Assembly: GCF_016593235.1 (NCBI RefSeq)
Contig: NZ_AP023065.1
Location: 62,001-126,000, forward strand
DNA length: 64,000 nucleotides
Source of the DNA: Nitratiruptor sp. YY09-18
GTDB taxonomy: Bacteria > Campylobacterota > Campylobacteria > Campylobacterales > Nitratiruptoraceae
Direction: 5' to 3'
Shown here one piece after another: positions 17,803-33,613 of the stretch (position 1 is its first letter; every line of letters begins with the position of its first letter). The notes below the pieces were generated by a model, which was not told the DNA's origin, did no database searches, and worked only from the letters and a program-made list of their open reading frames with translations. The translations under genes were made by a program, and so were the position numbers.

Positions 17803-18120
17803 TTAAGAAGAAGTTTTTAGGAGATTTTCGAAAATCTTAGTAAGTTCCTCTGCACTTACCAGGCCTTCAGCCAAGATCTTGCCTTGCCACTCCAGCGTTG
17901 GATCTTTGGCGACACCTCTTTCAATCGATTTTATTGCATCTTTTTCATATCGTATTTGCAAGCGCAAAGGCAGGTGCTTTACAGCACAGACAAGCCTTTT
18001 GGCCAACTTCACCCGCTCCGTATCGCTTCCGTGGATCGTTACATCAAGCAAAGGCCACTCTTCGTGCTCTGCATGAAGCATTTCCCCTTCCTTAAGGGGA
18101 TAGCAATATTCTAAACTCAT
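17803..18120 (-). CDS. Thioredoxin-fold-like small protein without CxxC
   Basis: A 105-residue cytosolic protein. The order of a DVTIHG strand, a helix with one cysteine (RLVCAVKHL), a LRLQIRYEKD strand, a VAKDPTLEWQGKIL hairpin and a final VSAEELTKIFENLL helix recalls the small thioredoxin-like proteins (MTH895 type), in which NPTLIVDGKVL is the usual hairpin. The CxxC pair is missing. AAGGAATGAA precedes the ATG, which lies one base after the globin gene stop. Last gene of the K+ channel operon. The fold is inferred by eye. Confidence 0.55.
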   Translation of the reverse strand: MSLEYCYPLKEGEMLHAEHEEWPLLDVTIHGSDTERVKLAKRLVCAVKHLPLRLQIRYEKDAIKSIERGVAKDPTLEWQGKILAEGLVSAEELTKIFENLLKTSS

Positions 18121-18121
18121 T

Positions 18122-19219
18122 TCATTCCTTGTTTTTGATGTAGAGTGTCAATTTCATAGTTTCTGCCAAGAGGTCAATTCCCTCAACTATGTAGAGTTTA
18201 TTTACAACATCTCTTGCTTTGATACAAAGAAAAAAGACGCTCTCTTTAAAACTTATATATTTAACAATATCATAGCCTTCTTCCGGTTCACTCTCTAAAA
18301 ACTCCAATGCTTCTATCGCCCATCCATAATTTTGGCTTAATAGCTTATACATATTGTGCTGGATAGTCTCTATCGTCAATGCTTTATCATTTGTAATAGC
18401 TCTTGTATAAATAATATCGGTCATGGCCCGCATTGTAGCAAGAGAACTTGTTAAAGAAAGATATGCAGTGACATTGATGTTATTGAGTGGTTTGATGATA
18501 GCATTTTTCAGTGCCCCTAAATTCTTCTCATTTGGTTCATTGGAAAACTGCGTACAAAATCTTTTGATAGTTGCTAGATGAAAACCCGCCTCTTCCAAAA
18601 CATCTTTATACTCTTTGAGCTCCTCCAAACTCTTTTCAAAAAGCTCTTTTGCTTCTTTGTCTACTTTCAACGCTTCAAAAGAGCTTTTGCATCGAATATA
18701 TGCCATATGAAGGCTATTGACTGCAATAAAAAGATCATTTGCCCTGTAAGGAGACTCTGCCAGCGTTTTTTGCGAAAAATACTCCTCTTTCATGATCTCT
18801 TCTGATACTTTTAAATACTTGATAATGAGCTTGAGATAGGGCAAGATAGCAGGTTCTTTTTGAGAAAGCTCCAAGATGAGTTCACTGAGCAGATGATAGC
18901 CGTATGAAAGCAGAATCGGATCGAGTCTGATGTGATAGTGCGCAATGGCCACTTTTGCGATTTTGTTATACAGCTCCTCATCAAAAGGTTTAGAGAGTAA
19001 CTGGGCAACAAACTTGATCTGTTTTCTTTTGAGTTCAGGGATTCTTTCAACCGGAATGAATTTCGTAAATTCCTCTTTTTGCAAGAGCTTTTCGTAAAAC
19101 TTGTCCATTATCTCATTCACATAAGGCTCTATCTTTTGTAATGCCTCTTTTCGCTTCTTTAGATCGTCATCTTGCAGTTGGTATATCTCTTTAATAAGTT
19201 CAATTTTTGCATTCATCAT
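18122..19219 (-). CDS. Protoglobin-domain sensor with unknown C-terminal region
   Basis: A 365-residue soluble protein. Residues 1-150 match the protoglobin/globin-coupled-sensor domain: IEPYVNEIMDKFYEKLL for the early helices and IAHYHIRLDP at 92-101, where H94 aligns with the proximal haem ligand (VHxRIGL in the family). Residues 160-365 are all-helical and match no output domain I recognise; there is no GGDEF, MCP, kinase or DNA-binding motif. Its start overlaps the cNMP-binding gene as ATGA. I infer a haem-based oxygen or NO sensor acting on its operon partners, most plausibly the K+ channel. Confidence 0.7.
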   Translation of the reverse strand: MMNAKIELIKEIYQLQDDDLKKRKEALQKIEPYVNEIMDKFYEKLLQKEEFTKFIPVERIPELKRKQIKFVAQLLSKPFDEELYNKIAKVAIAHYHIRLDPILLSYGYHLLSELILELSQKEPAILPYLKLIIKYLKVSEEIMKEEYFSQKTLAESPYRANDLFIAVNSLHMAYIRCKSSFEALKVDKEAKELFEKSLEELKEYKDVLEEAGFHLATIKRFCTQFSNEPNEKNLGALKNAIIKPLNNINVTAYLSLTSSLATMRAMTDIIYTRAITNDKALTIETIQHNMYKLLSQNYGWAIEALEFLESEPEEGYDIVKYISFKESVFFLCIKARDVVNKLYIVEGIDLLAETMKLTLYIKNKE

Positions 19220-19662
19220 AGCACCTCTTCTAATGTTTTATACATCTGAACAATTTTCTCATCGCTATTTCTTAAAAATTTAGCAAGAAGCAACGTAGCA
19301 TTTTTCAAAACCTTTACACCAATTTCTGGATTTTTTTGACAAAAGGCAAAAAAATCCTTTTGAGAAACTTCCAAAATCACTGAATCTTTTTTAGCCTCTA
19401 CAGTCGTCAAACTGTTACCTCCATCAACAAGGCAGGTCAGCGAAAAAAAGACACTGCTGTCACTGATTGTTGCAACCTCCATCTCTCCATCACTGGAGTG
19501 TTTTTTTACCAAAAGCAGACCACTTTCTAACAAAAACCCTTTTTTTAAATGGTCCCCTTCTTTTTTGATCGCCTGTCCTTTTGGAATCTCTTTTTTTGCA
19601 AAAATGGACAAAAAGCTTTGTTCCTCTTCTTCATTCAAACCTTCAAACAGCGGATTTTTCAT
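19216..19662 (-). CDS. Free-standing cyclic-nucleotide-binding (Crp-type) domain
   Basis: A 148-residue protein consisting only of a cNMP-binding beta-roll and flanking helices: MKNPLFEGLNEEEEQSFL, then GDHLKKGFLLESGLLLV and a final helix. There is no helix-turn-helix, so it is not a Crp-type regulator. The phosphate-binding cassette does not show the usual RAA motif (the region reads SSVFFSLTCLVDGGNS), so the ligand may not be cAMP. GGAGAGAAAAC precedes the ATG. It overlaps the K+ channel gene by 20 bases; such domains are usually fused to channels, here it is a separate chain. Confidence 0.8.
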   Translation of the reverse strand: MKNPLFEGLNEEEEQSFLSIFAKKEIPKGQAIKKEGDHLKKGFLLESGLLLVKKHSSDGEMEVATISDSSVFFSLTCLVDGGNSLTTVEAKKDSVILEVSQKDFFAFCQKNPEIGVKVLKNATLLLAKFLRNSDEKIVQMYKTLEEVL

Positions 19663-20758
19663 GTTTTCTCTCCATTACGATTAGTGCTGCGAACTCAGGA
19701 ATAACAAGATTATCGTCAGGATTGATAACCACTTCCATCTCGACCTGATTTTTTTTGATTTTTGTGAGAAGCTTTTTATATTTTTCCACATCCCCTCCAA
19801 ACTGCAGCTTTTTTAAGACAATTTTTTTCAGTTCACTCTCTGTTATATAGTTTTTTACGATGCCTATGAGTATCTCCCCTTTTTGCAAGCTATCCTCAAA
19901 AGCCTCTTTATAAGAGACTCCCTCATAGGAGTGTTTCGTTTGGATATGGATATTTTGCGTTCTAAGCAGCTTTCTGATAACCTTGGACATTCCAGGTTCA
20001 GTCACTGATTTTGAGAGTAAAAAGCGGTTATACTCTTCGCTCATAATAATTTCGTTGCATTTGCTTTTTATGAGATAGTTTTCATACTTTGGATCGATGA
20101 TTTCTGCTGTGATATAGACATGTGGATTTAAGGAACGAATCAAAATGACCGTTTCCAGCACCCTTGCATCGGCAAACTCATCATGCATATTGAGTATCAT
20201 CACTTTATCGGCTCTTTCGATATGCGCCTCTTTCAAAACCGCTTCATCGTTGTATTCCCCTTGTGCCCATTTGAGATGATGCTCTTCAAGAAGATTTTTC
20301 AGTTCTGGTACAAGTTCAGGATAAACGATTACGATATTCTCCCCATAATGGGCTTTAAAACTTTGTAAAACCTCTATACGAGGCGTTTTAAAACCGCAGA
20401 TCACAAGGTGCTTGTTCAGTGAATCTAACATCTCATATTCCTTTTTTGAAGAGATTGTCAGGGCTACAAGTTTGCTCGTCATTGTCGCTGTAAATGCAGC
20501 AACTGCAATGACACCACCTACAATAATGATAATCGCTACTATTTTTCCAGCTGCACTATGGGGCACCACATCACCATATCCCACGGTGGTAGCCGTAACA
20601 ATAGACCACCATAAACCATCAAAAAAATTTTTATAGGTTTTAGGCTCAAGCAACTCCATCAAATAAGATGCAATAAATAAAAAGATGGTATAAAGAAGGA
20701 TATAAAGCGTCGATAAATTAAGTTCTATTTTTAATCTTCTCAAAACCATCCTTTCCAT
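19643..20758 (-). CDS. MthK-like potassium channel with RCK domain
   Basis: A 371-residue membrane protein with two helices (about 17-37 and 71-95) around a pore loop with the K+ selectivity filter TVGYGD at residues 58-63, then an RCK/TrkA-N domain and a second C-terminal RCK-type lobe. The first RCK strand reads HLVICGFKTPRIEVL; the GxGxxG nucleotide motif is absent, as in the calcium-gated MthK channel (CGWSEST). A conserved AEIIDPKYENYL follows. It is the first gene of the four-gene module, 47 bases after the CDF gene; the in-between sequence has a possible -10 box (TTATAGT). Confidence 0.88.
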   Translation of the reverse strand: MERMVLRRLKIELNLSTLYILLYTIFLFIASYLMELLEPKTYKNFFDGLWWSIVTATTVGYGDVVPHSAAGKIVAIIIIVGGVIAVAAFTATMTSKLVALTISSKKEYEMLDSLNKHLVICGFKTPRIEVLQSFKAHYGENIVIVYPELVPELKNLLEEHHLKWAQGEYNDEAVLKEAHIERADKVMILNMHDEFADARVLETVILIRSLNPHVYITAEIIDPKYENYLIKSKCNEIIMSEEYNRFLLSKSVTEPGMSKVIRKLLRTQNIHIQTKHSYEGVSYKEAFEDSLQKGEILIGIVKNYITESELKKIVLKKLQFGGDVEKYKKLLTKIKKNQVEMEVVINPDDNLVIPEFAALIVMERKHEKSAV

Positions 20759-20805: not shown

Positions 20806-21702
20806 TTAAGGTGATACTACAAGCTCCTTTGTATCATTTCTACGGTATTCTGGCTGCAGTGTCACATGAGAAATATGATATTTTTCTTTTAAAACTTTTT
20901 CTATTTTTTCCATCTTTTTCATCACCTCTTTTAGTTTAAGATCACTGCTAAAATCCACATGTGCCTCAAAAAAGAGATCATGGTCATTGAGTCTCCAGAT
21001 GTGAATATGATGGACATTTTCGATTCCAGCTATTTGTGAAACGTCTTCGGCAATCTTTTGCAAATCTATCTCTTTGGGGGCAAACTGCATTAAGATAAAG
21101 ACAGACTCTTTGATAATATCAAAAGAGGCCCAAATGAGATAAAAAGCTATGAAAATAGAGATAACTGGATCGATCCAGTAGATGTGCCACCACTGCATGA
21201 GTAACCCGCCCACAACAACAGCCACTGAAGTAGCCACATCTGTTAAAAGATGCAAATAGGCTGCTTTTATGTTCATATTCTCATGCGCATCCTCTTTGAC
21301 AAGAAAGACACTGAGAGAGTTGAGTATAACGCTCAAAAGTCCAAGCCAGATAACCCATACCGAATCAATAGGTAGGGGATGGAAAAATTTTTGCACTGCT
21401 TCAATAATCAAAAAGATCGCTATGCCCATAAGAAGAGAGGCATTAAAAAGAGCTGCTATGATTTCAGCCCGTTTATAGCCAAAAGTTTTTGAAGTATCAC
21501 CAGGTCTTGCTGCCAGACGATTTGCTATCCATGCAACTACAAGGGAGAGCACATCGCTGAAGTTGTGCATCGCATCGCTTAAAAGTGCTAAAGAGCCAGA
21601 TATAAATCCTCCAATGATTTGCGCTAATGTAATAATAACATTTAAAATAATTGTAATAAAAAGGTTTTTGCCACTTACTTCATGATGGTGATGATGCCCC
21701 AT
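20806..21702 (-). CDS. CDF-family cation (zinc) efflux protein
   Basis: A 298-residue cation diffusion facilitator (CzcD/ZitB type) with six membrane helices and a cytosolic C-terminal domain. Metal-site motifs are SLALLSDAMHNFSDVLSL in helix 2 (with the HxxxD pair) and KAAYLHLLTDVATS in helix 5; the N-terminus carries a GHHHHHE metal-binding tail. The C-domain contains VHHIHIWRLNDHD and DVSQIAGIENVHH. Exports Zn2+ or a similar divalent cation with proton antiport. Twelve bases after the gene for the 81-residue protein; same strand as the whole efflux run. Confidence 0.92.
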   Translation of the reverse strand: MGHHHHHEVSGKNLFITIILNVIITLAQIIGGFISGSLALLSDAMHNFSDVLSLVVAWIANRLAARPGDTSKTFGYKRAEIIAALFNASLLMGIAIFLIIEAVQKFFHPLPIDSVWVIWLGLLSVILNSLSVFLVKEDAHENMNIKAAYLHLLTDVATSVAVVVGGLLMQWWHIYWIDPVISIFIAFYLIWASFDIIKESVFILMQFAPKEIDLQKIAEDVSQIAGIENVHHIHIWRLNDHDLFFEAHVDFSSDLKLKEVMKKMEKIEKVLKEKYHISHVTLQPEYRRNDTKELVVSP

Positions 21703-21714
21703 TGCTATCCTTTA

Positions 21715-21960
21715 TTATGATGGCTTAATATGACACTTTTTTGCCCGAATTGCTTTAATCTCTTTGACCTTTTTCTCAAGATCGCTGAGCATCTCATATT
21801 GAGCTGAATCGGTATGCCCATGCTCCTCCATTCGTCTTTTTTTCTCTTCAATCGTCTCGAGCCACTCGTCTATGATCTCATCTGGAACGGTACAATCGAG
21901 GGCCTCATCCTTTTCATGCTCGACGATCCAGTCGGCGATCTTTTTCAATATATGCAACAT
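21715..21960 (-). CDS. Small charged protein, unknown function
   Basis: An 81-residue soluble protein rich in Glu and Lys, with a coiled-coil-like C-terminal half (MLSDLEKKVKEIKAIRAKK) and two cysteines (C23 and one near the C-terminus in KKCHIKPS). AAGGATAAGCC precedes the ATG, so it is probably real. It lies between the TauE/SafE exporter and the CDF exporter with very short gaps. I do not recognise a family. Confidence 0.6.
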   Translation of the reverse strand: MLHILKKIADWIVEHEKDEALDCTVPDEIIDEWLETIEEKKRRMEEHGHTDSAQYEMLSDLEKKVKEIKAIRAKKCHIKPS

Positions 21961-21969
21961 GGCTTATCC

Positions 21970-22731
21970 TTAAAAAGTGATATGCAGCAGTTTTGCGATC
22001 ATCTTGGCGGAGAGGATCAAAAGCAAAACGCCAATGAGCTTCTTGACCTGCCCCGCTGTCAGATTATAGTGCAAAATCCTATCTCCCAGATATCCCCCGA
22101 TGATTGCGGCAACCGTCACATCGGCTAAAAGTAGCCAATCCATCTTGACAAAACTAAGATAGGTCGCAAACGCTCCAAGGGTGGAAAACGGAATCACGAA
22201 ACTAATAGCATAGGCCGCCTTTTTCGCATCAAATCCCAATAAAATCAGTAGCGGCATAATCAGCGATCCTCCCCCAACACCGATCATCCCTGAAACGATT
22301 CCCACACTTCCACCAATGACATAGAGCACCCACGCCTTATCATAAACCACCTTTGTCTCTCGGTGGCTAAAGAGCAGTAAAAAGGCGCTTACAATCAAAA
22401 AGGCTACCAGCATCCACTCCACGATCTCTTTTGGAACATATTGGGACATCCACGCTCCAATGGGAGTGGCGATCATAATGGAGATCACCAAAGGCAGAGC
22501 GAATTTGATATCCAAAACCCCTCGAAAAAAGTTCATAATCGATGCTGTGATCGTTGAAGCTGAGTTGATAAAGAGTCCTATGGCTTTGGCGAGATTGAAA
22601 GGCATTCCCATCATCGTAAAGGTTGGAACCAGTGCAATAGCCGAGCCCACTCCACCCATCGCAAAGAGGGTGGAAAGAGCGAGCGTGAGTAGAAAGTAAA
22701 GCCCGTAATGGATAAGTTCTGGACTCATCAT
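21970..22731 (-). CDS. TauE/SafE-family sulfite/anion exporter
   Basis: A 253-residue membrane protein with about eight helices. The pair of GVGGGSLIMPLLILLGFDAKKA-type loops is diagnostic (SGMIGVGGGSLIMP in the middle, MGGVGSAIALVPTF at the N-terminus). The family exports sulfite, sulfoacetate or related organosulfonates. Starts with ATGATG one base after the upstream stop, without a clear ribosome-binding site, so translation is probably coupled. Sequence here looks richer in GC than its neighbours, judged by eye. Confidence 0.85.
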   Translation of the reverse strand: MMSPELIHYGLYFLLTLALSTLFAMGGVGSAIALVPTFTMMGMPFNLAKAIGLFINSASTITASIMNFFRGVLDIKFALPLVISIMIATPIGAWMSQYVPKEIVEWMLVAFLIVSAFLLLFSHRETKVVYDKAWVLYVIGGSVGIVSGMIGVGGGSLIMPLLILLGFDAKKAAYAISFVIPFSTLGAFATYLSFVKMDWLLLADVTVAAIIGGYLGDRILHYNLTAGQVKKLIGVLLLILSAKMIAKLLHITF

Positions 22732-23727
22732 CTATCCATTGAGCAGTATGGTGGTTTTATAGAAAGGCTCGATGGGACCTTCAACGATATAGGGCAAAAT
22801 TGCCAAGACATGATGGCGAAATCTTGGATCGATATGGGAGTTTTCATGATCGAACACACTCTCCCATGTCCCATGAAACAGATAGTGGTACTTTCCATCC
22901 GGAGCAAAAGCGCTTTGCAAGATCTCCGTCGTTACCGCTCTTCTGTAGTGTCTGTTTTGATAGGATCCTGGCATCCCGTAGGGGAATTTTGGATTGTAAT
23001 CATAATCTCCTTTTGCCGGTCGGAAGGTCTCTTGAGCGACTTTGAGTAGTGCTGTGCTCTTTTTGTTGAAGATCTCTCTATCTTTTTTCAAAATCGCCAC
23101 ATGGTTGTTGACGGTGACAAGATCGCTTATAGGATCGTCTACTTGATGGCTCAAAAACTCTTCAATCTCTCTTGGTCGCAGATAGATTCTCTCTCTATCT
23201 CCAGCCGAGACGGTGACATAGACCCCTTCGGAGTAGTTTTCACTTAAGTCCCCAAACTCTCTCATCAGCCTCTCAAAGTCTTTGATAACGCCAGATCGCA
23301 TCAAATCGTGATAATTTTTAAATCGCACGAACAAAGAGTAGTACAGTGGAAGACTATTTTCCTTGGCGGCGTCAAGATAGGCGGTGCGCAAAACCGCTTT
23401 GAGATTGGTGGGGTAGTTGTGTACCATTGTCGAATCGCCTACCATGTTTTTAAGCGAAAGAGACAAAAAGCCTCTTTTTTTGCGAAGTTTTTTGCCAAGT
23501 TCTTCCATGTGGGCTACCATCTTTTCACGCTCGGGTATCCAGATCTTAAACTCCGTATAGTAGGTTACCGCACCTTTTGGAGCCTTTTCACCCTTGCCCG
23601 GCTCGATGTTTCTGGAGCCAAGAGTACAAGCCGCTCCCATCCCGCTTGCATCCGCCATAGTAGAAGCGAGCGTCAATCCTCCCATAGCCAAAGCCGCATT
23701 TTTCATAAAGTCACGTCGTTTCATCAT
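22732..23727 (-). CDS. Tat-exported protein of unknown function
   Basis: A 331-residue protein with a twin-arginine signal (KRRDFMKNAALAMGG), so it is exported folded, probably with a cofactor. The stretch from about residue 55 (VTYYTEFKIWIPEREKM to MVHNYP) has the strand-helix pattern of dimeric alpha-beta barrels (antibiotic biosynthesis monooxygenase-like), which is only a resemblance. The C-terminal third is rich in His and aromatic residues (YRRAVTTEIL, FDHENSHIDPRFRHHVL) that could bind metal or haem. AGGAGGTAG precedes; ATG at 23727 or 23724 are both possible. Sandwiched between a small membrane protein and TauE/SafE. Confidence 0.6.
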   Translation of the reverse strand: MMKRRDFMKNAALAMGGLTLASTMADASGMGAACTLGSRNIEPGKGEKAPKGAVTYYTEFKIWIPEREKMVAHMEELGKKLRKKRGFLSLSLKNMVGDSTMVHNYPTNLKAVLRTAYLDAAKENSLPLYYSLFVRFKNYHDLMRSGVIKDFERLMREFGDLSENYSEGVYVTVSAGDRERIYLRPREIEEFLSHQVDDPISDLVTVNNHVAILKKDREIFNKKSTALLKVAQETFRPAKGDYDYNPKFPYGMPGSYQNRHYRRAVTTEILQSAFAPDGKYHYLFHGTWESVFDHENSHIDPRFRHHVLAILPYIVEGPIEPFYKTTILLNG

Positions 23728-24059
23728 CTACCTCCTAATGTTTGGTGTTTATAGATCTCATACAAGAAATCGTGCATATCAAAATAGCCGATCATCGCCT
23801 CAAAAACCATCCGCCAGCAAAGCTCGGCACACAAAAAGAACCCCACAGCTATCAAAATTGTCATAAACTTGCCTCCTTTGGAAAGCGAGGCGTAGAGTGT
23901 GTGAAGTGTATCATTTAATGTTTTAGCAATTGAGATATTTTGGACAATCCAATCCCTTGCTATCCAAAGTACAAATGGCATAACAATTGCACCTATGTAG
24001 TAAAAAATGATCAATACATATTGAGTAATAAAATGATTAAAAGATAAAACATCATACAT
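23724..24059 (-). CDS. Small membrane protein, DUF4282-like
   Basis: A 111-residue protein with two membrane helices (about residues 12-33 and 66-88), the second followed by ELCWRMVFEAMIGYFDMHDFLYEI. The two-helix pattern with RMxxExxI resembles DUF4282. Its end overlaps the Tat-protein gene by 4 bases and its start overlaps the rhodanese gene by 8, so the three are one unit. It may anchor the exported protein or a partner; this is inference. Confidence 0.6.
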   Translation of the reverse strand: MYDVLSFNHFITQYVLIIFYYIGAIVMPFVLWIARDWIVQNISIAKTLNDTLHTLYASLSKGGKFMTILIAVGFFLCAELCWRMVFEAMIGYFDMHDFLYEIYKHQTLGGR

Positions 24060-24435
24060 CTTGTATACTTTCTATTATCTCTTTTGCTTTGTCACCTCTT
24101 AAAAATTCGACCACTTTGAGTAGTCCGTCCGTAAGATATCGTGCGTTAAAGCCTTTGAGTGTAAGATATAGTCTTGCAATTTCGGCTCTGTCATAGTGTG
24201 GACACATAGTCACAATTGTTTTGCTACTATCTAGCTCATTGAGTCTGTCTGGCAGCTCATTGAGTGGAATATGCAATCCAAATCCTACATGCCATGCCTC
24301 ATACTCCTCCCTAAATCTGATATCAACAACTTGTGCTTCGTCTTTTTGCAAAAGCTCAAACATCTCTTCAAGTCCAATTTTCATAGCCTTTCGTTCCTCA
24401 TAATCAAAACTTTTCAAATATTCATCAAAATCCAC
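24052..24435 (-). CDS. Rhodanese-domain protein
   Basis: A 127-residue single-domain rhodanese (sulfurtransferase). AQVVDIRFREEYEAWHVGFGLHIPL is the usual first half and VTMCPHYDRAEIAR contains the catalytic cysteine with a CPHYDRA loop, which is an unusual loop for thiosulfate sulfurtransferases. Translation starts at GTG (24435), six bases after AGGAG. Together with TauE/SafE downstream it suggests a sulfur-handling subcluster. Confidence 0.85.
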   Translation of the reverse strand: MDFDEYLKSFDYEERKAMKIGLEEMFELLQKDEAQVVDIRFREEYEAWHVGFGLHIPLNELPDRLNELDSSKTIVTMCPHYDRAEIARLYLTLKGFNARYLTDGLLKVVEFLRGDKAKEIIESIQDV

Positions 24436-24542
24436 TGCTTTCTCCTACTGATAAATTTTGTAACGAAGTCAAACAGACATATCTTGAGACACTGTTTGTT
24501 GGTATGATGCATTGCGTCCATAAACTCTTGCCACTCTCTCAT
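24414..24542 (-). CDS. Possible 42-residue ORF after chrA
   Basis: An open frame starts with ATG that shares bases with the chrA stop (TGATG) and runs 42 codons into the rhodanese start, reading MREWQEFMDAMHHTNKQ at its N-terminus and ending in WILMNI. It contains two cysteines separated by CLKIC and a basic tail. It would fill the only gap over 100 bases in this part of the minus-strand run. No family is recognised; it may be chance. Confidence 0.25.
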   Translation of the reverse strand: MREWQEFMDAMHHTNKQCLKICLFDFVTKFISRRKQWILMNI

Positions 24543-25738
24543 CACTTAAAATACAGTATAAGCTTAGCCACAACACCGATTAAAAAGATCCATAGTATAT
24601 TTATCCGCCAGTATCGTACTGCCAAAAAAGCTCCAACCGCCCATATATAGGTTGCAGGATTTATGAGAGCAACTTTGCCCAGGCTTAACAGAACAAAAAC
24701 AAGCATGCCTGTAAACGCAGCCAATATCCCTTTTAAAGCATTGCGAATCAGAGCCAAGTTTTTGATCTTCCCATACACTTCACTCATAACAAGAGTATAA
24801 AAAAAGGAGGGATAAAACATTCCAACGGTAGCCAAAGCACTTCCCAAAACTCCACTGACTTTATAACCGATAAAAGTAGCGGTAATGAGGAAGGGTCCTG
24901 GTGTAATCTGACCAAAAGCTATTGCATCTGCAAACTCTTTCAATGTCAGCCAGTGATGCGAAACTACCGCTTCTTGCTGCAGCAGCGGCATTATGGTCAT
25001 TCCGTTGCCAAAAGCTACTGCTCCCACTTTGAACATAGAAAAAAGCAGCTCCCCAGACTCGGTATGCCATATATATCCTGCTACAAAAAGCAGTACAAAA
25101 ATGGAACCTGCAAGAAAAATAGCTACCATACGCCACTGCCATTTGCCAGGAAACACTACTTCATACTCTTTTATGTTTCCATTATTCTTTTGAGAAGTTT
25201 TTAAAGAAAAAAGTCCAAGCACTGCGGCAACTATGATAATCCAAAAGGCATTCATACCATACAGCATCAATATAAGCGCAATACCGGCTATCAGTGCAGT
25301 TTTGCCTCCATTAATATATCGGCTGGAAAAATCGATCGTTACTTGTAAAACAATCCCTACTACCATCGCCTCTATGGCAATTAAGATGGGATGAATCCAT
25401 CCGATATGACCATATCGAAAATAGAGCCACGATAAGAGCAGCATCAATAGATAAGATGGCAAAATAAAAAGAAAAGTAGCCAAAACAGCGCCAAAAAATC
25501 CTTTAATTCGATAGGCTGAATAGGTAGCCAGATTGACAAAAATGGGTCCAGGATAGAGCTGCACCATAGCCAGCCCCTCATCTATCTCTTCTTGACTTAG
25601 CCATCCTTTTCTTGCGATAAGGTCTTTTAACTGCTGCAGCAACGCCATACTGTATGCAGTCAAACCTAAAAGAAAATATGTCCAACAAAGCTGCCAAAGG
25701 GTCGGAGTCTCTTTTTGGTTTACTGTTTTATCACTCAT
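24542..25738 (-). CDS. chrA: CHR-family chromate transporter, two-domain form
   Basis: A 398-residue membrane protein of the long-chain CHR family, with two homologous halves. The first has QLKDLIARKGWLSQEE and QLYPGPIFVNLATYSAYRIKG; the second has FGNGMTIMPLLQQEAV, HHWLTLKEFADAIAFGQITPGP and the same following helix. These repeat the CHR signature (GGP..A, Q.TPGP). Members export chromate driven by proton motive force, though some have other anions as substrate. The first half lacks the usual FGGP (LGLTAYSMA). The start overlaps the upstream permease gene by 8 bases. Confidence 0.85.
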   Translation of the reverse strand: MSDKTVNQKETPTLWQLCWTYFLLGLTAYSMALLQQLKDLIARKGWLSQEEIDEGLAMVQLYPGPIFVNLATYSAYRIKGFFGAVLATFLFILPSYLLMLLLSWLYFRYGHIGWIHPILIAIEAMVVGIVLQVTIDFSSRYINGGKTALIAGIALILMLYGMNAFWIIIVAAVLGLFSLKTSQKNNGNIKEYEVVFPGKWQWRMVAIFLAGSIFVLLFVAGYIWHTESGELLFSMFKVGAVAFGNGMTIMPLLQQEAVVSHHWLTLKEFADAIAFGQITPGPFLITATFIGYKVSGVLGSALATVGMFYPSFFYTLVMSEVYGKIKNLALIRNALKGILAAFTGMLVFVLLSLGKVALINPATYIWAVGAFLAVRYWRINILWIFLIGVVAKLILYFK

Positions 25739-26210
25739 TTTCTATTCTTTCGACAATCATCCCTTGCAATAGGGCTCCTATGATTATGTATATATTCAAC
25801 ACTATTGTAAATGTTAATCCAAAATAGTGCACCATCAATGGAAGCAGCGGCAGTTTCACAGCTCTTGCATAAAAAAAGAGGGCTATTAAAGAATCCCTTA
25901 GCCCCTTTTTCTTTAAATCTTCTATCAGCGGATACCATGCATACATAGGACCGTGGCTTAAAATTCCGGCAAACAGTGCTATGATCCATGCTTTTATCCC
26001 GCCCTCACGGCTTAGATGTTTTGCCAATGTTTTCGGGTCGATAAAAAAGTTGATAAGGGCATTGATTAAAACGACAACGGCTAAAATAGGAGTGATTTTC
26101 ATCAAAAGATAAAAAGACTCCTGCAAAGCCAAAGAAGCTTTTTGAGGGAAAAAGAGAAAAAGCAACATATAGCTTGCAGTGACGATGAGCAAAAACCATT
26201 TTCCCTTCAT
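25731..26210 (-). CDS. Permease half-gene (DUF318/ArsP-like), C-terminal part
   Basis: A 159-residue membrane protein with about four helices; VLINALINFFIDPKTLAKHL and LFAGILSHGPMYAWYPLIEDL match the second half of the DUF318 permeases (ArsP/YraQ type). I chose ATG at 26210 (MKGKWFLLIV), overlapping the previous stop as ATGA with GGAG upstream. The first half is the next gene upstream; together they would make one transporter of about 300 residues. ArsP members export organoarsenicals. Confidence 0.7.
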   Translation of the reverse strand: MKGKWFLLIVTASYMLLFLFFPQKASLALQESFYLLMKITPILAVVVLINALINFFIDPKTLAKHLSREGGIKAWIIALFAGILSHGPMYAWYPLIEDLKKKGLRDSLIALFFYARAVKLPLLPLMVHYFGLTFTIVLNIYIIIGALLQGMIVERIENE

Positions 26211-26620
26211 CCCAAAAGCTCCAGCGTCCAAACGGTAGCGATGGTAACCAAAAAAGTAAAAACAAAAGCCAAAATATTTCTAAGAATGGTAAATCGAATA
26301 CCAAGCACACTTGCTTCCAGCGGCAGCTGCACGATTCCAAGAGTAACCCAAGCCAAAATAAACGCCGTCACTCCATACATCGACACACCGCTTTCTAAAA
26401 GTTCCCCACCTAATATATAACTTATAATTGCCTGCCCAACGGCAATAGCTCCGGCAAAAAGGCCTATGAAGGTATCATAAAACGGTTTTTCGGTAAACAA
26501 AGATGCAAGCAGATCGGGAGTGATGAAAACTTTGAAAATGCCGACAACTCCGATAATACCTATTAACATCGGTAATATCTTGAAAAAACTTTTCAAAGAT
26601 TGAGAGAGTGCTCTTTTCAT
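26207..26620 (-). CDS. Permease half-gene (DUF318/ArsP-like), N-terminal part
   Basis: A 137-residue membrane protein with four helices. LPMLIGIIGVVGIFKVFIT, then LFAGAIAVGQAIISYILGGELLESGVS, has the pattern of the first half of DUF318 permeases. The split into two genes with an ATGA overlap looks stable rather than a fresh frameshift, because the second gene has its own ribosome-binding site. Starts directly after the ferredoxin-reductase stop. Confidence 0.7.
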   Translation of the reverse strand: MKRALSQSLKSFFKILPMLIGIIGVVGIFKVFITPDLLASLFTEKPFYDTFIGLFAGAIAVGQAIISYILGGELLESGVSMYGVTAFILAWVTLGIVQLPLEASVLGIRFTILRNILAFVFTFLVTIATVWTLELLG

Positions 26621-27667
26621 CTATATCTCTGTATGTATTTTACTCTCGTCCACTCCGTTTTTCATAAGCACTTTTTTAAACGTATCCAATGCTCCAAAAG
26701 GTCCAGCTATATAGTAATCCCTATCGGTATCAAAAATCTCTTCTAAAAAAGCCTCCAGTGCTCTTTTTTTGAAAAATTGTCCATGTTTTGGCAGTTTAAA
26801 TGCAACATCATACTCTTTCGCCACCAAAATGGGTTTGAAATTTTTATATGTTTGGGCAAGCTCGTTAATCTCATCCAAATAGTAGAAATCTTTTGATCGG
26901 CTTACTCCCCAAAACAGTTTGATATCTCTATCTTGATCTTTTAAGAGTACCTCCCGTATCATTCCGATAAGTGGTGCAAGCCCTACACCAAGAGCCACGA
27001 AATAGAGTCTGTTTTGCGAATCACACACAAACTTTCCGTACGGCCCTTTTGCAATGAGGGATTCCTCTCTTTTCAAGTCATTATAGGCATATTCGCTAAA
27101 TCTTCCTCCTGGAACCTTTTTGACATGAAACTCGACATATCCGTCAGAGAAAGGAACATTTGCAACAGAATAGCTCCTTCCAAGCCAATTCTTACCCGGA
27201 ATTTCAAGCTCCATATAACGCCCGGCTCGTATATTTTGCACATTTCCAAGATCACATCTTAAAATTGTCACATCACCTCTGATCTCTTTATCAACAATTT
27301 TTGCTTGCTCTTTTGGCGCAGGTTTAGCATCTTTGTATTCCAAAATATCTTTTCGAGTAAATAGATCATCTTCAACTGCGTGATGCTCATCGACTCTTTT
27401 TTCAAGATCTAAAACGACATCAAATGGCGGAAAAGATATGGCATCTACCGGGCAAGTATTATGGCAAGTGGTACATCCTACAAGACAGTTCAACGGATCA
27501 TAGACAATCGATTTTTCGTTTTCAAAATCATATCTATACACAAGCCTGTTGCATCCTGTCACACATGTTGCACACCCTATACATCTGTCATGATCGACAG
27601 TGGGATGCCAATCTATCTCTTCTCTTGGTATTCCATGCCATGGTTTTAAAAATCTTGGATCTGGCAT
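26621..27667 (-). CDS. Ferredoxin-FNR fusion oxidoreductase
   Basis: A 348-residue protein: two 4Fe-4S clusters in residues 20-80 (C29/C32/C35/C39 and C61/C65/C68/C72), then from about 120 an FAD domain (GRSYSVANVP, the RxYS flavin motif) and an NAD(P) domain (YFVALGVGLAPLIGMIREVL, ending in YYIAGPFGALDTFKKVL). It would pass electrons between NAD(P)H and a low-potential or membrane acceptor. AAAGGAGTCAAAG precedes the ATG. Located next to the split permease and chrA, so it may reduce a metal or metalloid before export; that is inference. Confidence 0.8.
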   Translation of the reverse strand: MPDPRFLKPWHGIPREEIDWHPTVDHDRCIGCATCVTGCNRLVYRYDFENEKSIVYDPLNCLVGCTTCHNTCPVDAISFPPFDVVLDLEKRVDEHHAVEDDLFTRKDILEYKDAKPAPKEQAKIVDKEIRGDVTILRCDLGNVQNIRAGRYMELEIPGKNWLGRSYSVANVPFSDGYVEFHVKKVPGGRFSEYAYNDLKREESLIAKGPYGKFVCDSQNRLYFVALGVGLAPLIGMIREVLLKDQDRDIKLFWGVSRSKDFYYLDEINELAQTYKNFKPILVAKEYDVAFKLPKHGQFFKKRALEAFLEEIFDTDRDYYIAGPFGALDTFKKVLMKNGVDESKIHTEI

Positions 27668-27703
27668 CTTTGACTCCTTTGTTTGTTTTCATATCTTCTC
27701 TTT

Positions 27704-27946
27704 TCAAAAAAGATCCTCAAATTTGTAATTTAAAAACAAAATGATTCCAATACCGCCTACAATACTTACAAGAGCACTCAACAGATCGTTATTTGGAAAA
27801 AGATACTTATCCATAAGCATCCAACTTCCTCTCCAAAATGCCACTACACCAAAAGCTGCAGCTAATGCTGCTATACCTCTGGAGTGGAGATTAGTGTTTT
27901 TTCCTTTTTCATCATTTTGTTGACATATTCTTTTTTTCGATCGCAT
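27704..27946 (-). CDS. Small membrane protein, unknown function
   Basis: An 80-residue protein with a charged N-terminal 24 residues and two membrane helices (about 26-46 and 58-75) with FWRGSWMLMDKYLFPNND between them, which recalls small membrane proteins seen beside metal transporters. AGAAGGTT precedes the ATG. It lies 18 bases after the thioredoxin gene and 36 before the ferredoxin-FNR gene. Confidence 0.6.
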   Translation of the reverse strand: MRSKKRICQQNDEKGKNTNLHSRGIAALAAAFGVVAFWRGSWMLMDKYLFPNNDLLSALVSIVGGIGIILFLNYKFEDLF

Positions 27947-27964
27947 GCATAACCTTCTAAGCTA

Positions 27965-28324
27965 TTATTTCAAAAGTTCTATAACCTCTTTTTTGGAAAG
28001 CACTCCGATATGTCGATAGACCTCTTTTTTCTTTTCATACAAAATCTGTGTTGGAATAAGCATAATTTGTAACTTTTTTGCTGCATCTTTATTTTGTTCG
28101 ATATTTAAAAAAAATATTTGAAAATTTGGATGCTCTTGCTTAATGGTATAAAACAGCTTTCCCATTTTTTGACAACTCAAGCAGTGGTCTGATCCAACTT
28201 CAACCAAAACCCGTTTTCCGGAAGCGATCGCTTTTTGAATTTCACTAAAAGGCGTAGATGGAAGCATTTTTGCATCTGCAAAAAGAGACATGCTAAAAAT
28301 AGCAGCAAATAGTAACTTTTTCAT
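27965..28324 (-). CDS. Periplasmic thioredoxin-like protein (CLSC)
   Basis: A 119-residue protein with a signal peptide (MKKLLFAAIFSMSLFADA) and a thioredoxin fold with active site C48-L-S-C51, strand VLVEVGSDHC and the cis-proline loop MLIPTQILY. It is shorter than full thioredoxins, like the DsbD/SoxW-related type. AAAGGAAAAAG precedes the ATG. Ten bases after the ccdA-like gene, which is its probable electron donor across the inner membrane. Confidence 0.85.
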   Translation of the reverse strand: MKKLLFAAIFSMSLFADAKMLPSTPFSEIQKAIASGKRVLVEVGSDHCLSCQKMGKLFYTIKQEHPNFQIFFLNIEQNKDAAKKLQIMLIPTQILYEKKKEVYRHIGVLSKKEVIELLK

Positions 28325-28334
28325 CTTTTTCCTT

Positions 28335-29036
28335 TCATATCTGTTCTATCGCTCTATAGAAAAAATAGCATCCAAACCCAATCAAAACAAGAGCAAAACT
28401 TTTATTCAAAAGAGTAGAGAGCTTTGCTACTGTTTTGTTTGAGACAACTCTTTGTGCAATGCCAACAGAGGCTCCTGCTATGAGCAGCAGTAGCGAGTGT
28501 CCAAGGGCGAAGCTCAAAACCAGCATATAGGCATAGATATAGTGAGCATTGGCTGCAGCTGTGATGATAGCCACAAGAGGAGCAGAGGCACAAGGCGTGC
28601 TCACAAGTCCAAAAACAATCCCTATCAAAAAGCCTCCAAAGAGGCGAAATCGAATAAGTTTGTCTATAACTTTTGATTTATCAATCTCACTAAAAATACC
28701 CCAAGCATAGAGTCCAATGAAGATACTGACAACTCCAGCAATCAGATATGCCCACATTGGAGCTATAGAGAAAAAGAGGCCAAATTTTGCCACTAAAAAG
28801 GCCAAAAAAGAGAAACTGACCACTACACCTAAAGCAAAAAGTGCTGAAAATGCATAAGTAAAAAATATCTTCTTTCTGCCTTGGAGATCTTTGTTGAGAG
28901 CAAGAACGCTTCCAACTAATAGAGGAACTGAGATAAGAGAGCAAGGAGCTGCGGCAGTGAGACTTCCTGCAACAAAGGCTCCTACAATTGCTACTAATGA
29001 GTGTGATGCCAAAAGGGCATCAAGCCATTGGGGCAT
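28335..29036 (-). CDS. ccdA: CcdA/DsbD-type thiol-disulfide transmembrane transporter
   Basis: A 233-residue membrane protein with six to seven helices and the two redox cysteines of the CcdA family: C32 in TAAAPCSLISVP and C149 in VSTPCASAPLVAI. It carries reducing equivalents from cytosolic thioredoxin to the periplasm. Next gene is the CLSC thioredoxin; upstream is an AhpD-like protein and the RND pump, so this looks like a periplasmic redox-repair branch of the efflux operon. Confidence 0.88.
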   Translation of the reverse strand: MPQWLDALLASHSLVAIVGAFVAGSLTAAAPCSLISVPLLVGSVLALNKDLQGRKKIFFTYAFSALFALGVVVSFSFLAFLVAKFGLFFSIAPMWAYLIAGVVSIFIGLYAWGIFSEIDKSKVIDKLIRFRLFGGFLIGIVFGLVSTPCASAPLVAIITAAANAHYIYAYMLVLSFALGHSLLLLIAGASVGIAQRVVSNKTVAKLSTLLNKSFALVLIGFGCYFFYRAIEQI

Positions 29037-29038
29037 TG

Positions 29039-29401
29039 CTACTCTTCTAGATTTTTCAGTGCCGCCTCAGCCACTCCTACCACACTGCTTGCGGCTGCAT
29101 GGCGCACTATGCGAATGACTGAGAGAATCTCTTCTTTAGTTGCACCCATTTTCTTAGCGGCTTTTGTATTGAGCTCAACACACTCTTCGTTACCCAGTGC
29201 AAGAGCTGCTGCCAAAAAAACAAGCGTGCTTGTTTTTGGATCGAGCGCATTCTTTTCGCTTTGCATGCTCAGTTTGGAACTTATTGCTTGCTCAACTATT
29301 AAAGATGGATCCAATTTTGCTGCTGCTTCGATTGATGCAGGAATCTTTCCGAAGCGCTCTTTCATCATATTCATCACTTGTTCTGGTGTTGGTGTTTGCA
29401 T
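29039..29401 (-). CDS. AhpD/carboxymuconolactone decarboxylase-like protein, degenerate active site
   Basis: A 120-residue all-helical protein of the CMD/AhpD family. FGKIPASIEAAAKLDPSLI and LVFLAAALALGNEECVELNTKAAKKMGATKEEI follow the family pattern. The usual CxxCxxxH is replaced by N71-E-E-C74-V-E-L-N78, so the first cysteine and the histidine are missing and a peroxidase cycle like that of AhpD is not expected. AAGGAGGAGAT precedes the ATG. Lies between the RND pump and ccdA. Confidence 0.8.
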   Translation of the reverse strand: MQTPTPEQVMNMMKERFGKIPASIEAAAKLDPSLIVEQAISSKLSMQSEKNALDPKTSTLVFLAAALALGNEECVELNTKAAKKMGATKEEILSVIRIVRHAAASSVVGVAEAALKNLEE

Positions 29402-29410
29402 ATCTCCTCC

Positions 29411-32400
29411 TTATTCTTCGATATATTCTTCAACTTTTTCTATCGGATTGGTTTTTCTATTCCTTGGATCGGTCGCATAGGCATAGAGCGGAACATAAAT
29501 GAGTGTGAGAAGTGTTCCTACCAAAAGCCCTCCAATCGCAACATCAGCCAAAGGACTGAGGCGTTCTAGACCCACCGCTTGCTCAAGTGCAATTGGGATC
29601 ATCCCAGCAATTGTCCCAAAGGCTGTCATCATAACAGGGCGAAAACGTACTCTCACGCTCTCAAGTGCTGCTTCAAATGGTGATTTTCCTTCTTTTTCAT
29701 ACTCTTTATAAAAGTCGATAAGCAAAACGGCATTTTTGATGATAATCCCAAAGAGGAGCAAGAGTCCCACCATACTTGGCATACAGCTAGGTTTGTGAAA
29801 TATAAGCATACCCCATGCGGCTCCTATCATTGAGAGTGGGAGAACCAAAATCATGATGATTGCCAAACGGACTGACTCATAGATAGCAGTAAGTGTCATG
29901 AGCAAAATTATGACACCTATTGCAATCGCTTTGATCATACGCTTGAAGCTATCATGAAGCTGTGCGATATCTCCCTCTTGGCTTACGATAAATCCTGTTG
30001 TATCTACCTTTTTCAGTGCATTATCTGCATCATCTGTGATATGTGTGACAGGGCGTTTTGCACGGTATCCGTTGATATCGATGCTATAGAGCAATTTATC
30101 TCGCTCGATTTTTGCAGGGGTGAGCTGATAGTGCATTTTTGCAATCTCACGTAATGGGATCTCACCAAATTTTGTGTGGATTGGCAAGAGTTTGAGAGAT
30201 TGGATAGTCTCATTGAATTTACCTTTGAGGTAGAGACGCACAAACTGTGTATTCATCGATGCAAGGTTCGCTGCAAGGGAGACTACTTGTCCTTTGATAG
30301 GAAGCTGCATTGCTACTTGCAGTGGTGTAATACCGTAGCTTAGAGCCTTGTTCTTGTCGATATCGATGAAAATCTCTGTAAAGTCATTATCCCAGCTTTG
30401 ACTAATAGATGTAAGCCCTTTGATGTTTTTGATTGTATGTATAATCTCTTGCGCTTTTGTTGGCAAGCTCTCATAATCGCCCGCTTTGAGACGGATATCA
30501 AGAGGTGCTTTGATCGTGGAGAGGGCAGTTGCTCCAAAATCGAATACATCGTTTTTCTTCACACCTGGAAGCTGGGCAATTTTGTCGCGTATCTCATCTT
30601 CAAGCTCCCAGATACTTTTTTTGCGGTGGAATCTATCTACTGCATTGATAGTGATTGTCGCTTCACTTGGCAAGTTTCCACTTCCTAGGCTTAGCACCGA
30701 TGGCTCGCTCCCAAATGCTACAGAGCTGCTTACAACCCATGGCTGTTTGTGTAGCCAGACAAGGAATTTGTGCAGTTTCTTCTCTGCACTATCTACTGTC
30801 TCATTGGCACTAAAAGCTACTTGTGCTTTGATGATCCCCGTATCCATTGGCGGCATAACATCTTTTCCAATGAGCGGCATAACATTTTTGAGGCTGAGTA
30901 CCAGCGTCAAAACCACCGCCATTGTAAGGAGCATACGGCGAAGTGGCCAAAATTTGCCATTGGAAAATTTAAGAACACTCAAGTATGGGCCAATAAGGCG
31001 ACCTATTGTGTTTTGATAGAACTCCTCAAACCACTTTTCAATGCGAGTCTTTTCTGTTCCATTTTTATATAGCCAGATCGAAAGACGTGGTATAAAGGTG
31101 ATAGAGAGAAAATAGCTCACTAAAAGTGCGATGATGAGTGTAGAGATGAGTGGCCTAAAGATATGCTCTGGAAAGTCTCCCACAAACATGAGTGGAAAGA
31201 TAATAGCGATAGTCGCTACAGTCCCTGCAAAGACCGGTCCTAGCACCTCTTTGGTCCCGTTGATGATGGCTTGTTCCATCGATTCATTCATCTCAAGATG
31301 GCGCTCGATATTTTCAAGTACCACAACCGCATCATCCACTAGCATTCCAAGAGCGAGGATAATAGCAGTGTAGATGACGATATTGAGCTCCCCGCCACTT
31401 AGCCAAATGATTGCGATCGTACCAAAAAAGACAAGCGGGATAGAGATACCTGCTGCAACAATTGCACGGAAATTTCCCAAGAAAAGCAAAAGTACCAGAA
31501 GTGTATAGACTATTGCATCTCTGAGAGCTTCAAGCATGTTTTTGTTTGCAGTCTCAATGAGTGTGCGTTGGGTATCAGCAATTTCAAAATTGATATTTGG
31601 ATAGAGTTTGGCAAGTTTTTTGATCTCAGCGCGCGCTGCATCACTCACATCAAGGACGCTTCCGCCAGGTGCGCGCTGAATAGAAAGTGCAATCGCATTT
31701 TTGCCGTTTCCTATATAGCCACTTGTGCGCTTTTTGTGGCTCCAAGAGATTGTTGCAATATCTTTGAGTTTCACATTTGGCAAAATATTGAGGTTTTTAA
31801 GCTCCTCCATATTATCTTTTTCGCCATAATATGTCACAGTGTAAAAGTCGTTCGCACTCTTTGTGAAGCCTATAGGAATATCTTTGTTGAGTGCAAAGAG
31901 AGCCTTTGCAAGTTGATCGAAGCTAATATTGTATTTTTTGGCTTTGAAGGGGTCTATTTCGATATTGATAGCGCTTTGATACCCCCCAAAGACCTCTACA
32001 TTTCCTATATGTGGATTTGCCAAAAGGTAGGGCTTGATATGAGAGTCTGCGATTTTGCGAATCTCATCAAGAGAGATATTTTTATTTTTTGGGCTAAGAG
32101 CCACCACTTCTACAGGCAGTGTAAAATCCCCTACTGTATAGATAGAGGGATTTGCGTTTTGTGGGAGTTTTCCTTTTGCGATAGAGAGGGCATTTGCTAC
32201 ATCCACTGCAGCCGCTTCTAGCCCCTTTTCATATTCAAATTCGGCTTTGACAATGGAGAAGTTTGCTACATTCACACTACTTACATCTCGTACGAGACTA
32301 ATACGACTGATCTCCTCTTCAATTGGCTTACTTACTGTATTTGCAGCAACCTCAGCTGTTGCTCCTGGCACTGAGGTAATAACTACAACTTGAGGTCTAT

Positions 32401-32515
32401 TGGCATCGGGAAAAAGATTTTTAGGAAGGGCTTTTAGCCCAATAATCCCCATTACAAAAAAGCCAACAATTAAACTAAAGAGCAGATAGGGTCGTTTATA
32501 AAAATATTCAAACAT
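29411..32515 (-). CDS. RND efflux pump, AcrB/HAE1-type
   Basis: A 1034-residue inner-membrane pump with twelve helices and two large periplasmic loops. The proton-relay pair D394-D395 in ALGMLVDDAVVVLENIERH matches the drug-exporting HAE family (heavy-metal pumps have DG here). The second half has LFGIIIKNAVLLIDFYKEYEKEG and RFRPVMMTAFGTIAGMIP. AAAGGATAGCGT precedes the ATG. It forms a tripartite system with the adaptor and TolC encoded upstream. Confidence 0.93.
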   Translation of the reverse strand: MFEYFYKRPYLLFSLIVGFFVMGIIGLKALPKNLFPDANRPQVVVITSVPGATAEVAANTVSKPIEEEISRISLVRDVSSVNVANFSIVKAEFEYEKGLEAAAVDVANALSIAKGKLPQNANPSIYTVGDFTLPVEVVALSPKNKNISLDEIRKIADSHIKPYLLANPHIGNVEVFGGYQSAINIEIDPFKAKKYNISFDQLAKALFALNKDIPIGFTKSANDFYTVTYYGEKDNMEELKNLNILPNVKLKDIATISWSHKKRTSGYIGNGKNAIALSIQRAPGGSVLDVSDAARAEIKKLAKLYPNINFEIADTQRTLIETANKNMLEALRDAIVYTLLVLLLFLGNFRAIVAAGISIPLVFFGTIAIIWLSGGELNIVIYTAIILALGMLVDDAVVVLENIERHLEMNESMEQAIINGTKEVLGPVFAGTVATIAIIFPLMFVGDFPEHIFRPLISTLIIALLVSYFLSITFIPRLSIWLYKNGTEKTRIEKWFEEFYQNTIGRLIGPYLSVLKFSNGKFWPLRRMLLTMAVVLTLVLSLKNVMPLIGKDVMPPMDTGIIKAQVAFSANETVDSAEKKLHKFLVWLHKQPWVVSSSVAFGSEPSVLSLGSGNLPSEATITINAVDRFHRKKSIWELEDEIRDKIAQLPGVKKNDVFDFGATALSTIKAPLDIRLKAGDYESLPTKAQEIIHTIKNIKGLTSISQSWDNDFTEIFIDIDKNKALSYGITPLQVAMQLPIKGQVVSLAANLASMNTQFVRLYLKGKFNETIQSLKLLPIHTKFGEIPLREIAKMHYQLTPAKIERDKLLYSIDINGYRAKRPVTHITDDADNALKKVDTTGFIVSQEGDIAQLHDSFKRMIKAIAIGVIILLMTLTAIYESVRLAIIMILVLPLSMIGAAWGMLIFHKPSCMPSMVGLLLLFGIIIKNAVLLIDFYKEYEKEGKSPFEAALESVRVRFRPVMMTAFGTIAGMIPIALEQAVGLERLSPLADVAIGGLLVGTLLTLIYVPLYAYATDPRNRKTNPIEKVEEYIEE

Positions 32516-32518
32516 ACG

Positions 32519-33613
32519 CTATCCTTTTATCTCTTTAAGCTTAATGCCACTTAAGAGTTTGAGCAAAATATCTGGTTTTGCAACTACAAGCTCTTTGCCA
32601 CTGAGATCTTCTGCTACAACCACGCCTTCTGCTCCAGATGCTTTCACATGTACTTCGAGCGGTTTTGCATACTCTCCATTTACTACAAGCACATATGTTT
32701 TGCCGTTACGATTGAGGACCGCATCAAATGGAAGCAAAAGAGCTTCGTTATCATATGTAATCACTTTCGTCTCGACTCGTTGACCTTCAATGAGTTTTGG
32801 ATCATCTACATCAGCGCGATATTCGCTCAAAGAGTTGAAGCTGCCTTTGAGGGGTTTGAGTGCGTAACGTTTGCCATTATAGAGTAGACCATAAGCTGCT
32901 ATATTGCTTGGAAGTCTTACAAGAAGATAGTTGTCTTGTGATCCATTGATGCTAAGAAGCGGACGTCCCGGCATAGCAATATCGCCGAGGTTTGCAAATT
33001 TTTTGGCTACTACTCCATCGATTGGTGAAGTGAGCACCGCATAGCTGAGCTCATTATTTACTTCAGCTAGATTTGCTTGGAATGAAGCGAGTTTGCCACG
33101 CAGACTTGCGAGATTTGCTTTTGCATTTGCGATCTGAGTCGCTTCTCTCTCTAGCTGCTCTTTGGAAGCTCCTTTGACAGCGTAGAGCTTTTTGGTGCGC
33201 TCATGAATTTTGCGCAAATTCACGAGAGCTTCCTTGGCTGCTGCAATCTGGAGTCTTGTAGCTTCTATTTGTGCTTTGAGACTATCGCGTTTGCTTTTGA
33301 GTACAGTTGTATCTATTTTGGCGACTACATCACCCTTTTTGACCTTTTGGCCAGCCTCTTTTATCTGTAAAATTCGTCCCGGAAATTTTGCAACAAGTGC
33401 GACATTCTTATCATTTTTAACAATTGCAAGATAGTCGCTGCTTAGCACTACATGGCTCTTTTGTGGTTTGAGTGTCTTGACAATGACAGCATACTCTTTT
33501 GCTATTGGAGTGCTTGCTTCTTGAGCCTTACGCTTTTTTACTAGCCTTACAGCACCTACAACGAGTAAAATCACAATAAGCAAGAATATTGCAATTTTTA
33601 TCCATTTTTTCAT
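32519..33613 (-). CDS. RND periplasmic adaptor (membrane fusion protein)
   Basis: A 364-residue adaptor with an N-terminal membrane anchor (about residues 5-25). ILQIKEAGQKVKKGDVVAKID is the lipoyl half-motif, followed by a helical hairpin (residues 110-180, heptad-like) and the second half SPIDGVVAKKFANLGDIAMPG. It links the pump to TolC. Overlaps the tolC gene by four bases (ATGA), and the pump gene starts three bases after its stop. Confidence 0.93.
   Translation of the reverse strand: MKKWIKIAIFLLIVILLVVGAVRLVKKRKAQEASTPIAKEYAVIVKTLKPQKSHVVLSSDYLAIVKNDKNVALVAKFPGRILQIKEAGQKVKKGDVVAKIDTTVLKSKRDSLKAQIEATRLQIAAAKEALVNLRKIHERTKKLYAVKGASKEQLEREATQIANAKANLASLRGKLASFQANLAEVNNELSYAVLTSPIDGVVAKKFANLGDIAMPGRPLLSINGSQDNYLLVRLPSNIAAYGLLYNGKRYALKPLKGSFNSLSEYRADVDDPKLIEGQRVETKVITYDNEALLLPFDAVLNRNGKTYVLVVNGEYAKPLEVHVKASGAEGVVVAEDLSGKELVVAKPDILLKLLSGIKLKEIKG

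Follow-up and report, generated by a model that had tools for sequence, protein, structure and literature searches.

Three overlapping genes in the genome of Nitratiruptor sp. YY09-18 constitute a conserved and probably functional module, encoding a two-transmembrane (2-TM) K+ channel with an RCK domain (CHAN), a stand-alone protein of the cNMP-binding fold (CNBD) and a protoglobin sensor (GLOB). The best reading of this arrangement, which we consider about evenly balanced between right and wrong, is a gas- or redox-regulated K+ channel built from separately encoded subunits. More tentatively, we suggest that it may represent the first globin-gated ion channel, in which a protoglobin sensor freed from its kinase would act through a nucleotide-blind CNBD adaptor and let O2, NO or the haem redox state directly set the K+ flux of an RCK channel. 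The features of the locus are collected in Table 1; the window is the whole 64,000-nucleotide stretch that was analysed.

Table 1. Features of the module and its surroundings, in window coordinates
Feature	Position	Strand	Basis
Detoxification island: CDF, 81-aa protein, TauE, CT0912-like, DUF4282, rhodanese, ChrA, ArsP, Fe-S/NAD reductase, Trx, DsbD, CMD, RND pump	20806..34881	-	
CHAN, 2-TM K+ channel with RCK domain, 371 aa	19643..20758	-	Ion_trans_2 1.7e-17, TrkA_N 1.1e-11 (Pfam); model match to MthK/GsuK/Slo
Selectivity filter TVGYGD, residues 58-63	20570..20587	-	Sequence and alignment
RCK N-lobe, about residues 117-239, Rossmann loop CGFKTPR replacing GxGxxG	20042..20410	-	Pfam, predicted model
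CNBD, stand-alone cNMP-binding-fold protein, 148 aa	19216..19662	-	PF00027 (cNMP_binding) 1.5e-11; 20-nt overlap with CHAN
Degenerate phosphate-binding cassette FFSLTCLVDGGNSLTT, without GE...R of cNMP binders	19402..19449	-	Alignments, profile comparison
Conserved CNBD C-terminal tail SDEKIVQMYKTLEEVL, likely partner-binding	19219..19266	-	Alignment; retained in GLOB-less L081
GLOB, protoglobin sensor without output domain, 365 aa	18122..19219	-	PF11563 8.5e-17; 4-nt overlap with CNBD
Protoglobin domain, residues 3-150	18770..19213	-	Pfam, Foldseek
Tyr42, predicted distal haem residue (= AfGcHK Tyr45)	19094..19096	-	PDB profile alignment
His94, predicted proximal haem ligand (= AfGcHK His99)	18938..18940	-	PDB profile alignment
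Degenerate CZB-like helical bundle, residues 162-246	18482..18736	-	Alignment with kinases; Cys177, Cys222 at two zinc-ligand positions
Helix-three strands-helix segment, residues 283-365	18125..18373	-	Homologous to pre-HisKA segment of protoglobin histidine kinases
Small thioredoxin-fold-like accessory protein without CXXC, 105 aa	17803..18120	-	Weak profile matches (Pfam Thioredoxin_3 0.025, TIGR00412 0.0019)

The locus comprises four minus-strand reading frames with spacings of -20, -4 and +1 nt, in exact agreement with the 20-base overlap, 4-base overlap and 1-base gap given by an earlier sequence-only reading. That reading had treated the four genes as one unit, which does not hold, because the fourth gene adjoins the others in just 8 of 15 genomes, all within the window's genus; given this limited adjacency we leave it out of the core and regard it as accessory. 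The gene itself is present as described, but the thioredoxin fold ascribed to its product rests on sub-threshold matches, and the CXXC of a thioredoxin active site is missing from all 10 aligned copies. A promoter and terminator scan of the locus gave matches no more numerous than in shuffled sequences.

The first three genes fare differently. A search for the same gene order in other Campylobacterota, which the sequence-only reading had proposed, finds them syntenic in 15 genomes of several families, at identities to the window as low as 58% for the channel, 39% for CNBD and 47% for GLOB, so that their co-occurrence is not due to chance. CNBD adjoins CHAN in all 17 loci at a distance of -20 to +3 nt and is never fused to the channel chain; CNBD and GLOB lie -4 to +1 nt apart in all 15 genomes save one, L090, with its frame-broken GLOB. 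Among the loci examined, no protein joins CHAN to CNBD or CNBD to GLOB in one chain. The genome of the window yielded a single copy of GLOB. The window's family has GLOB in 8 of 22 genomes, all of the window's genus, with an orthologous channel in the same 8; a phylum sample of 397 genomes adds full-length GLOB orthologs in three other families, and a scan of genome contigs adds three further MAG loci with the module. Of the genome-contig scans, that with the GLOB sequence returned no relatives, and that with the cytosolic part of the channel returned 10 loci, all from Campylobacterota or unclassified epsilonproteobacteria, the patterns being narrow enough to leave absence elsewhere unproven. 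On plasmids (tblastn) GLOB was not found and the channels were remote only.

Two genomes carry the channel and CNBD genes without GLOB, G120 (locus L081, 68%) and the distant G313 (L082, 33%). The CHAN-CNBD pair is thus best seen as the core of the module and GLOB as an add-on, and gas control is not essential to the channel. Two MAG loci display altered copies: in L068 (G234) the channel lies in two pieces on separate contigs and all that remains of GLOB is a 164-aa globin domain, and in L090 (5578-6533) a frame change splits GLOB, through either an assembly error or a natural break.

The predicted CHAN model (mean pLDDT 74) combines a 2-TM pore with a Rossmann lobe and with a C-lobe into which a helical part is inserted, and its best structural matches are MthK, GsuK and Slo1 (Foldseek; 1.5e-15 to MthK 6u5r). 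Filter residues T58 to D63 are invariant in a 16-sequence channel alignment, the Rossmann loop reads ICGFKTPR where GxGxxG would be expected, and the stretch SEEYNRFLLSKS is identical in every aligned copy but that of the distant L082. Both the TVGYGD filter and the MthK-like RCK lobe lacking GxGxxG had been recognised from the sequence. CHAN therefore shares with MthK and GsuK the 2-TM pore, the TVGYGD-type filter and the C-terminal RCK domain, and differs from them in a C-lobe that Pfam does not recognise. The ligands of MthK and GsuK, in contrast to the input proposed here, are Ca2+ or nucleotides, and we know of no partner CNBD or globin for either channel.

What, then, could be the role of the free CNBD? 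Its fold is clear, with a profile match to the CNBD of MlotiK1 (6e-6), and Pfam agrees with the sequence-only reading that it is a separate chain devoid of a DNA-binding domain. It resembles the domain of MlotiK1 and other CNBD channels in accompanying a K+ pore, and differs in being encoded by a separate neighbouring gene rather than fused to the channel as in cyclic-nucleotide-gated channels, in lacking the residues that contact cNMP, and in serving a channel that already has an RCK domain. At the Gly-Glu and Arg positions of cNMP binders, 15 of 16 aligned copies carry a sequence of the FSLT...SLTT type; the sixteenth, L082, retains Gly-Glu and has lost the Arg. Neither class III nor class I adenylate cyclases, the two families searched for, were found in the 1.76-Mb genome, which encodes three cNMP-binding domains, the other CRP/FNR-type domains lying outside the module. 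With the contact residues lost and the two cyclase families absent, we rejected cyclic-nucleotide gating as the default, and the nucleotide input that had been ascribed to the free CNBD is not borne out. A split CNG-like channel, with CNBD binding a cyclic nucleotide or another small ligand and gas as a second input, appears very improbable on the same grounds, even though the clear fold, the Gly-Glu of L082 and the restriction of the cyclase search to two families speak in its favour. The loss of the Glu and Arg together with the missing cyclases suggests instead that CNBD is probably a coupling subunit and not a cNMP sensor. Its C-terminal tail, ending in TLEEVL, is conserved in all aligned copies except L082; since the GLOB-less L081 also keeps it, the channel or another CNBD is a likelier partner for this tail than GLOB.

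The predicted model of GLOB (pLDDT 85) has an N-terminal protoglobin-type fold, the globin part of which matches the sensor domains of AfGcHK and HemAT (TMt 0.80, Foldseek). In AfGcHK, His99 is the proximal and Tyr45 the distal haem residue (PMC8697598). The protoglobin domain and the proximal His94 noted at the outset are both upheld by the Pfam match and by the alignment of His94 with His99, and Tyr42 and His94 are invariant in all 14 copies examined. The remaining segment of about 200 helical residues is likewise present, yet it is not of unknown type as had been supposed: it is homologous to the stretch that separates globin from HisKA in protoglobin histidine kinases of the same bacterial order. 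Within it, the degenerate bundle has Cys at two of the zinc-ligand positions of a CZB domain and has lost the others, whereas the related kinases retain a His, Cys, HxxxH pattern; CZB was recorded in one of these relatives at 9.9e-4, under the curated cut-off. Cys177 and Cys222 are kept in the GLOB copies except that of L091, and L068 is without the whole region. GLOB ends in this unannotated linker-type segment, and kinase domains occur just in the relatives. Judged from its sequence, GLOB belongs with the globin-coupled sensors and lacks the kinase: it shares the N-terminal protoglobin-type domain, proximal His and distal Tyr with AfGcHK, HemAT and DosC and the pre-HisKA segment with the protoglobin kinases, and differs from the former in having no kinase, MCP or GGDEF in its chain, its likely output being the adjoining K+ channel. 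Protoglobin histidine kinases in which globin and HisKA flank a CZB-like pattern of zinc ligands were observed in L069 (3981-6308), L070 (4239-6566), L072 (5046-7379) and L074 (3746-6052), the kinase domains having been tested in L069 and L074 and assigned by similarity in L070 and L072; these proteins are possibly dual haem and zinc sensors.

We propose that CHAN would act as a tetrameric K+ channel of the MthK type, its gating ring formed by RCK domains, and that CNBD, retaining its fold and having lost nucleotide binding, would sit on its cytosolic domain as a fixed coupling subunit. GLOB would correspond to the sensor half of a protoglobin histidine kinase, the kinase itself having been lost. 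Ligand binding to, or oxidation of, a haem held by His94 and Tyr42 would alter the CZB-like and linker part of GLOB, and this change might pass to the CNBD-CHAN assembly and modify K+ flux under oxidative, nitrosative or sulfur stress. The synteny and gene overlaps show co-expression and not contact; that the proteins form a physical complex, that CHAN is a tetramer, that GLOB binds haem, which ligand it senses, in which direction gating goes and that K+ flows out rather than in are what we infer.

It is a lesser but real possibility that CHAN and CNBD form a channel complex, and that GLOB is a co-transcribed haem protein handling NO or O2 or signalling elsewhere, the operon reflecting a shared stress response rather than one machine. 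CHAN-CNBD does occur alone, the CNBD tail is conserved whether GLOB is present or not, so that its partner is probably not GLOB, and the surrounding genes are all concerned with detoxification; a Methanosarcina protoglobin is reported to act as a nitrite reductase and to isomerise peroxynitrite (PMC4020757). The long transmission segment of kinase-linker type would, however, be superfluous in a globin that simply detoxifies, and full-length GLOB orthologs were never found apart from CHAN-CNBD. Unlikely in our view is a third arrangement, in which GLOB and CNBD act on some other target, for instance a kinase or a regulator, and CHAN is just a neighbour: the resemblance of GLOB to a kinase sensor part and the further CRP/FNR-type domains of the genome would fit, but no pair of the module persists as well as CHAN-CNBD, which is retained even amid entirely different surroundings.

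For a regulated channel of separate subunits, the nearest functional analogue, by our best reading, would be the glutathione-gated K+ efflux systems KefC-KefF and KefB-KefG, in which a separate ancillary subunit encoded by an overlapping gene binds the RCK domain (PMC10224563). The module has in common with them a K+ pathway with an RCK/KTN domain, a separately encoded soluble ancillary subunit, a gene overlap of a few bases and, putatively, protection from reactive compounds (PMC10224563). It differs in that Kef is a K+/H+ antiporter with a CPA2 membrane domain and CHAN a 2-TM channel whose pore Pfam assigns to the ion-channel type, and in that the Kef ancillary subunit is a quinone reductase, its place being taken here by CNBD and a globin.

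Globin-coupled sensors drive chemoreceptors, kinases and cyclases. Our literature search, which covered few subscription papers, found no described system joining a protoglobin or other globin sensor to a potassium channel, nor any report tying a globin-coupled sensor to an ion channel, in line with the sequence-only reading, which knew of none combining a haem sensor, a cNMP domain and a K+ channel. If the complex exists, a gas or redox signal would act directly and quickly on membrane potential and cytoplasmic K+, in parallel with the protection that Kef affords, and the gas gating of a K+ channel could be rebuilt from a small set of purified parts. It would also exemplify the apparent use of a CNBD as an adaptor without nucleotide.

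The island of sulfur, metal and redox detoxification genes lies upstream of the module. At least one island gene is found near every GLOB-bearing copy examined (the short contig L089 has just one), and the two GLOB-less copies have none nearby, a distribution that points to a role of the module in stress defence. The 81-aa protein of the island (21715-21960, minus strand) has no Pfam match, is well conserved and usually adjoins the TauE gene in related loci. The CT0912-like or ABM-like protein (22732-23727, minus strand) displays, by eye, a twin-arginine-like N-terminus, and its counterpart in L066 is 82% identical. FeoA and FeoB directly follow the module in L009 (7370-9732) and, by similarity, in L010, and not in the window. 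On the plus strand of the window, the gene at 16307-17158 appears from its sequence to encode a fusion of a ferritin-like domain with a membrane part of the VIT1 type.
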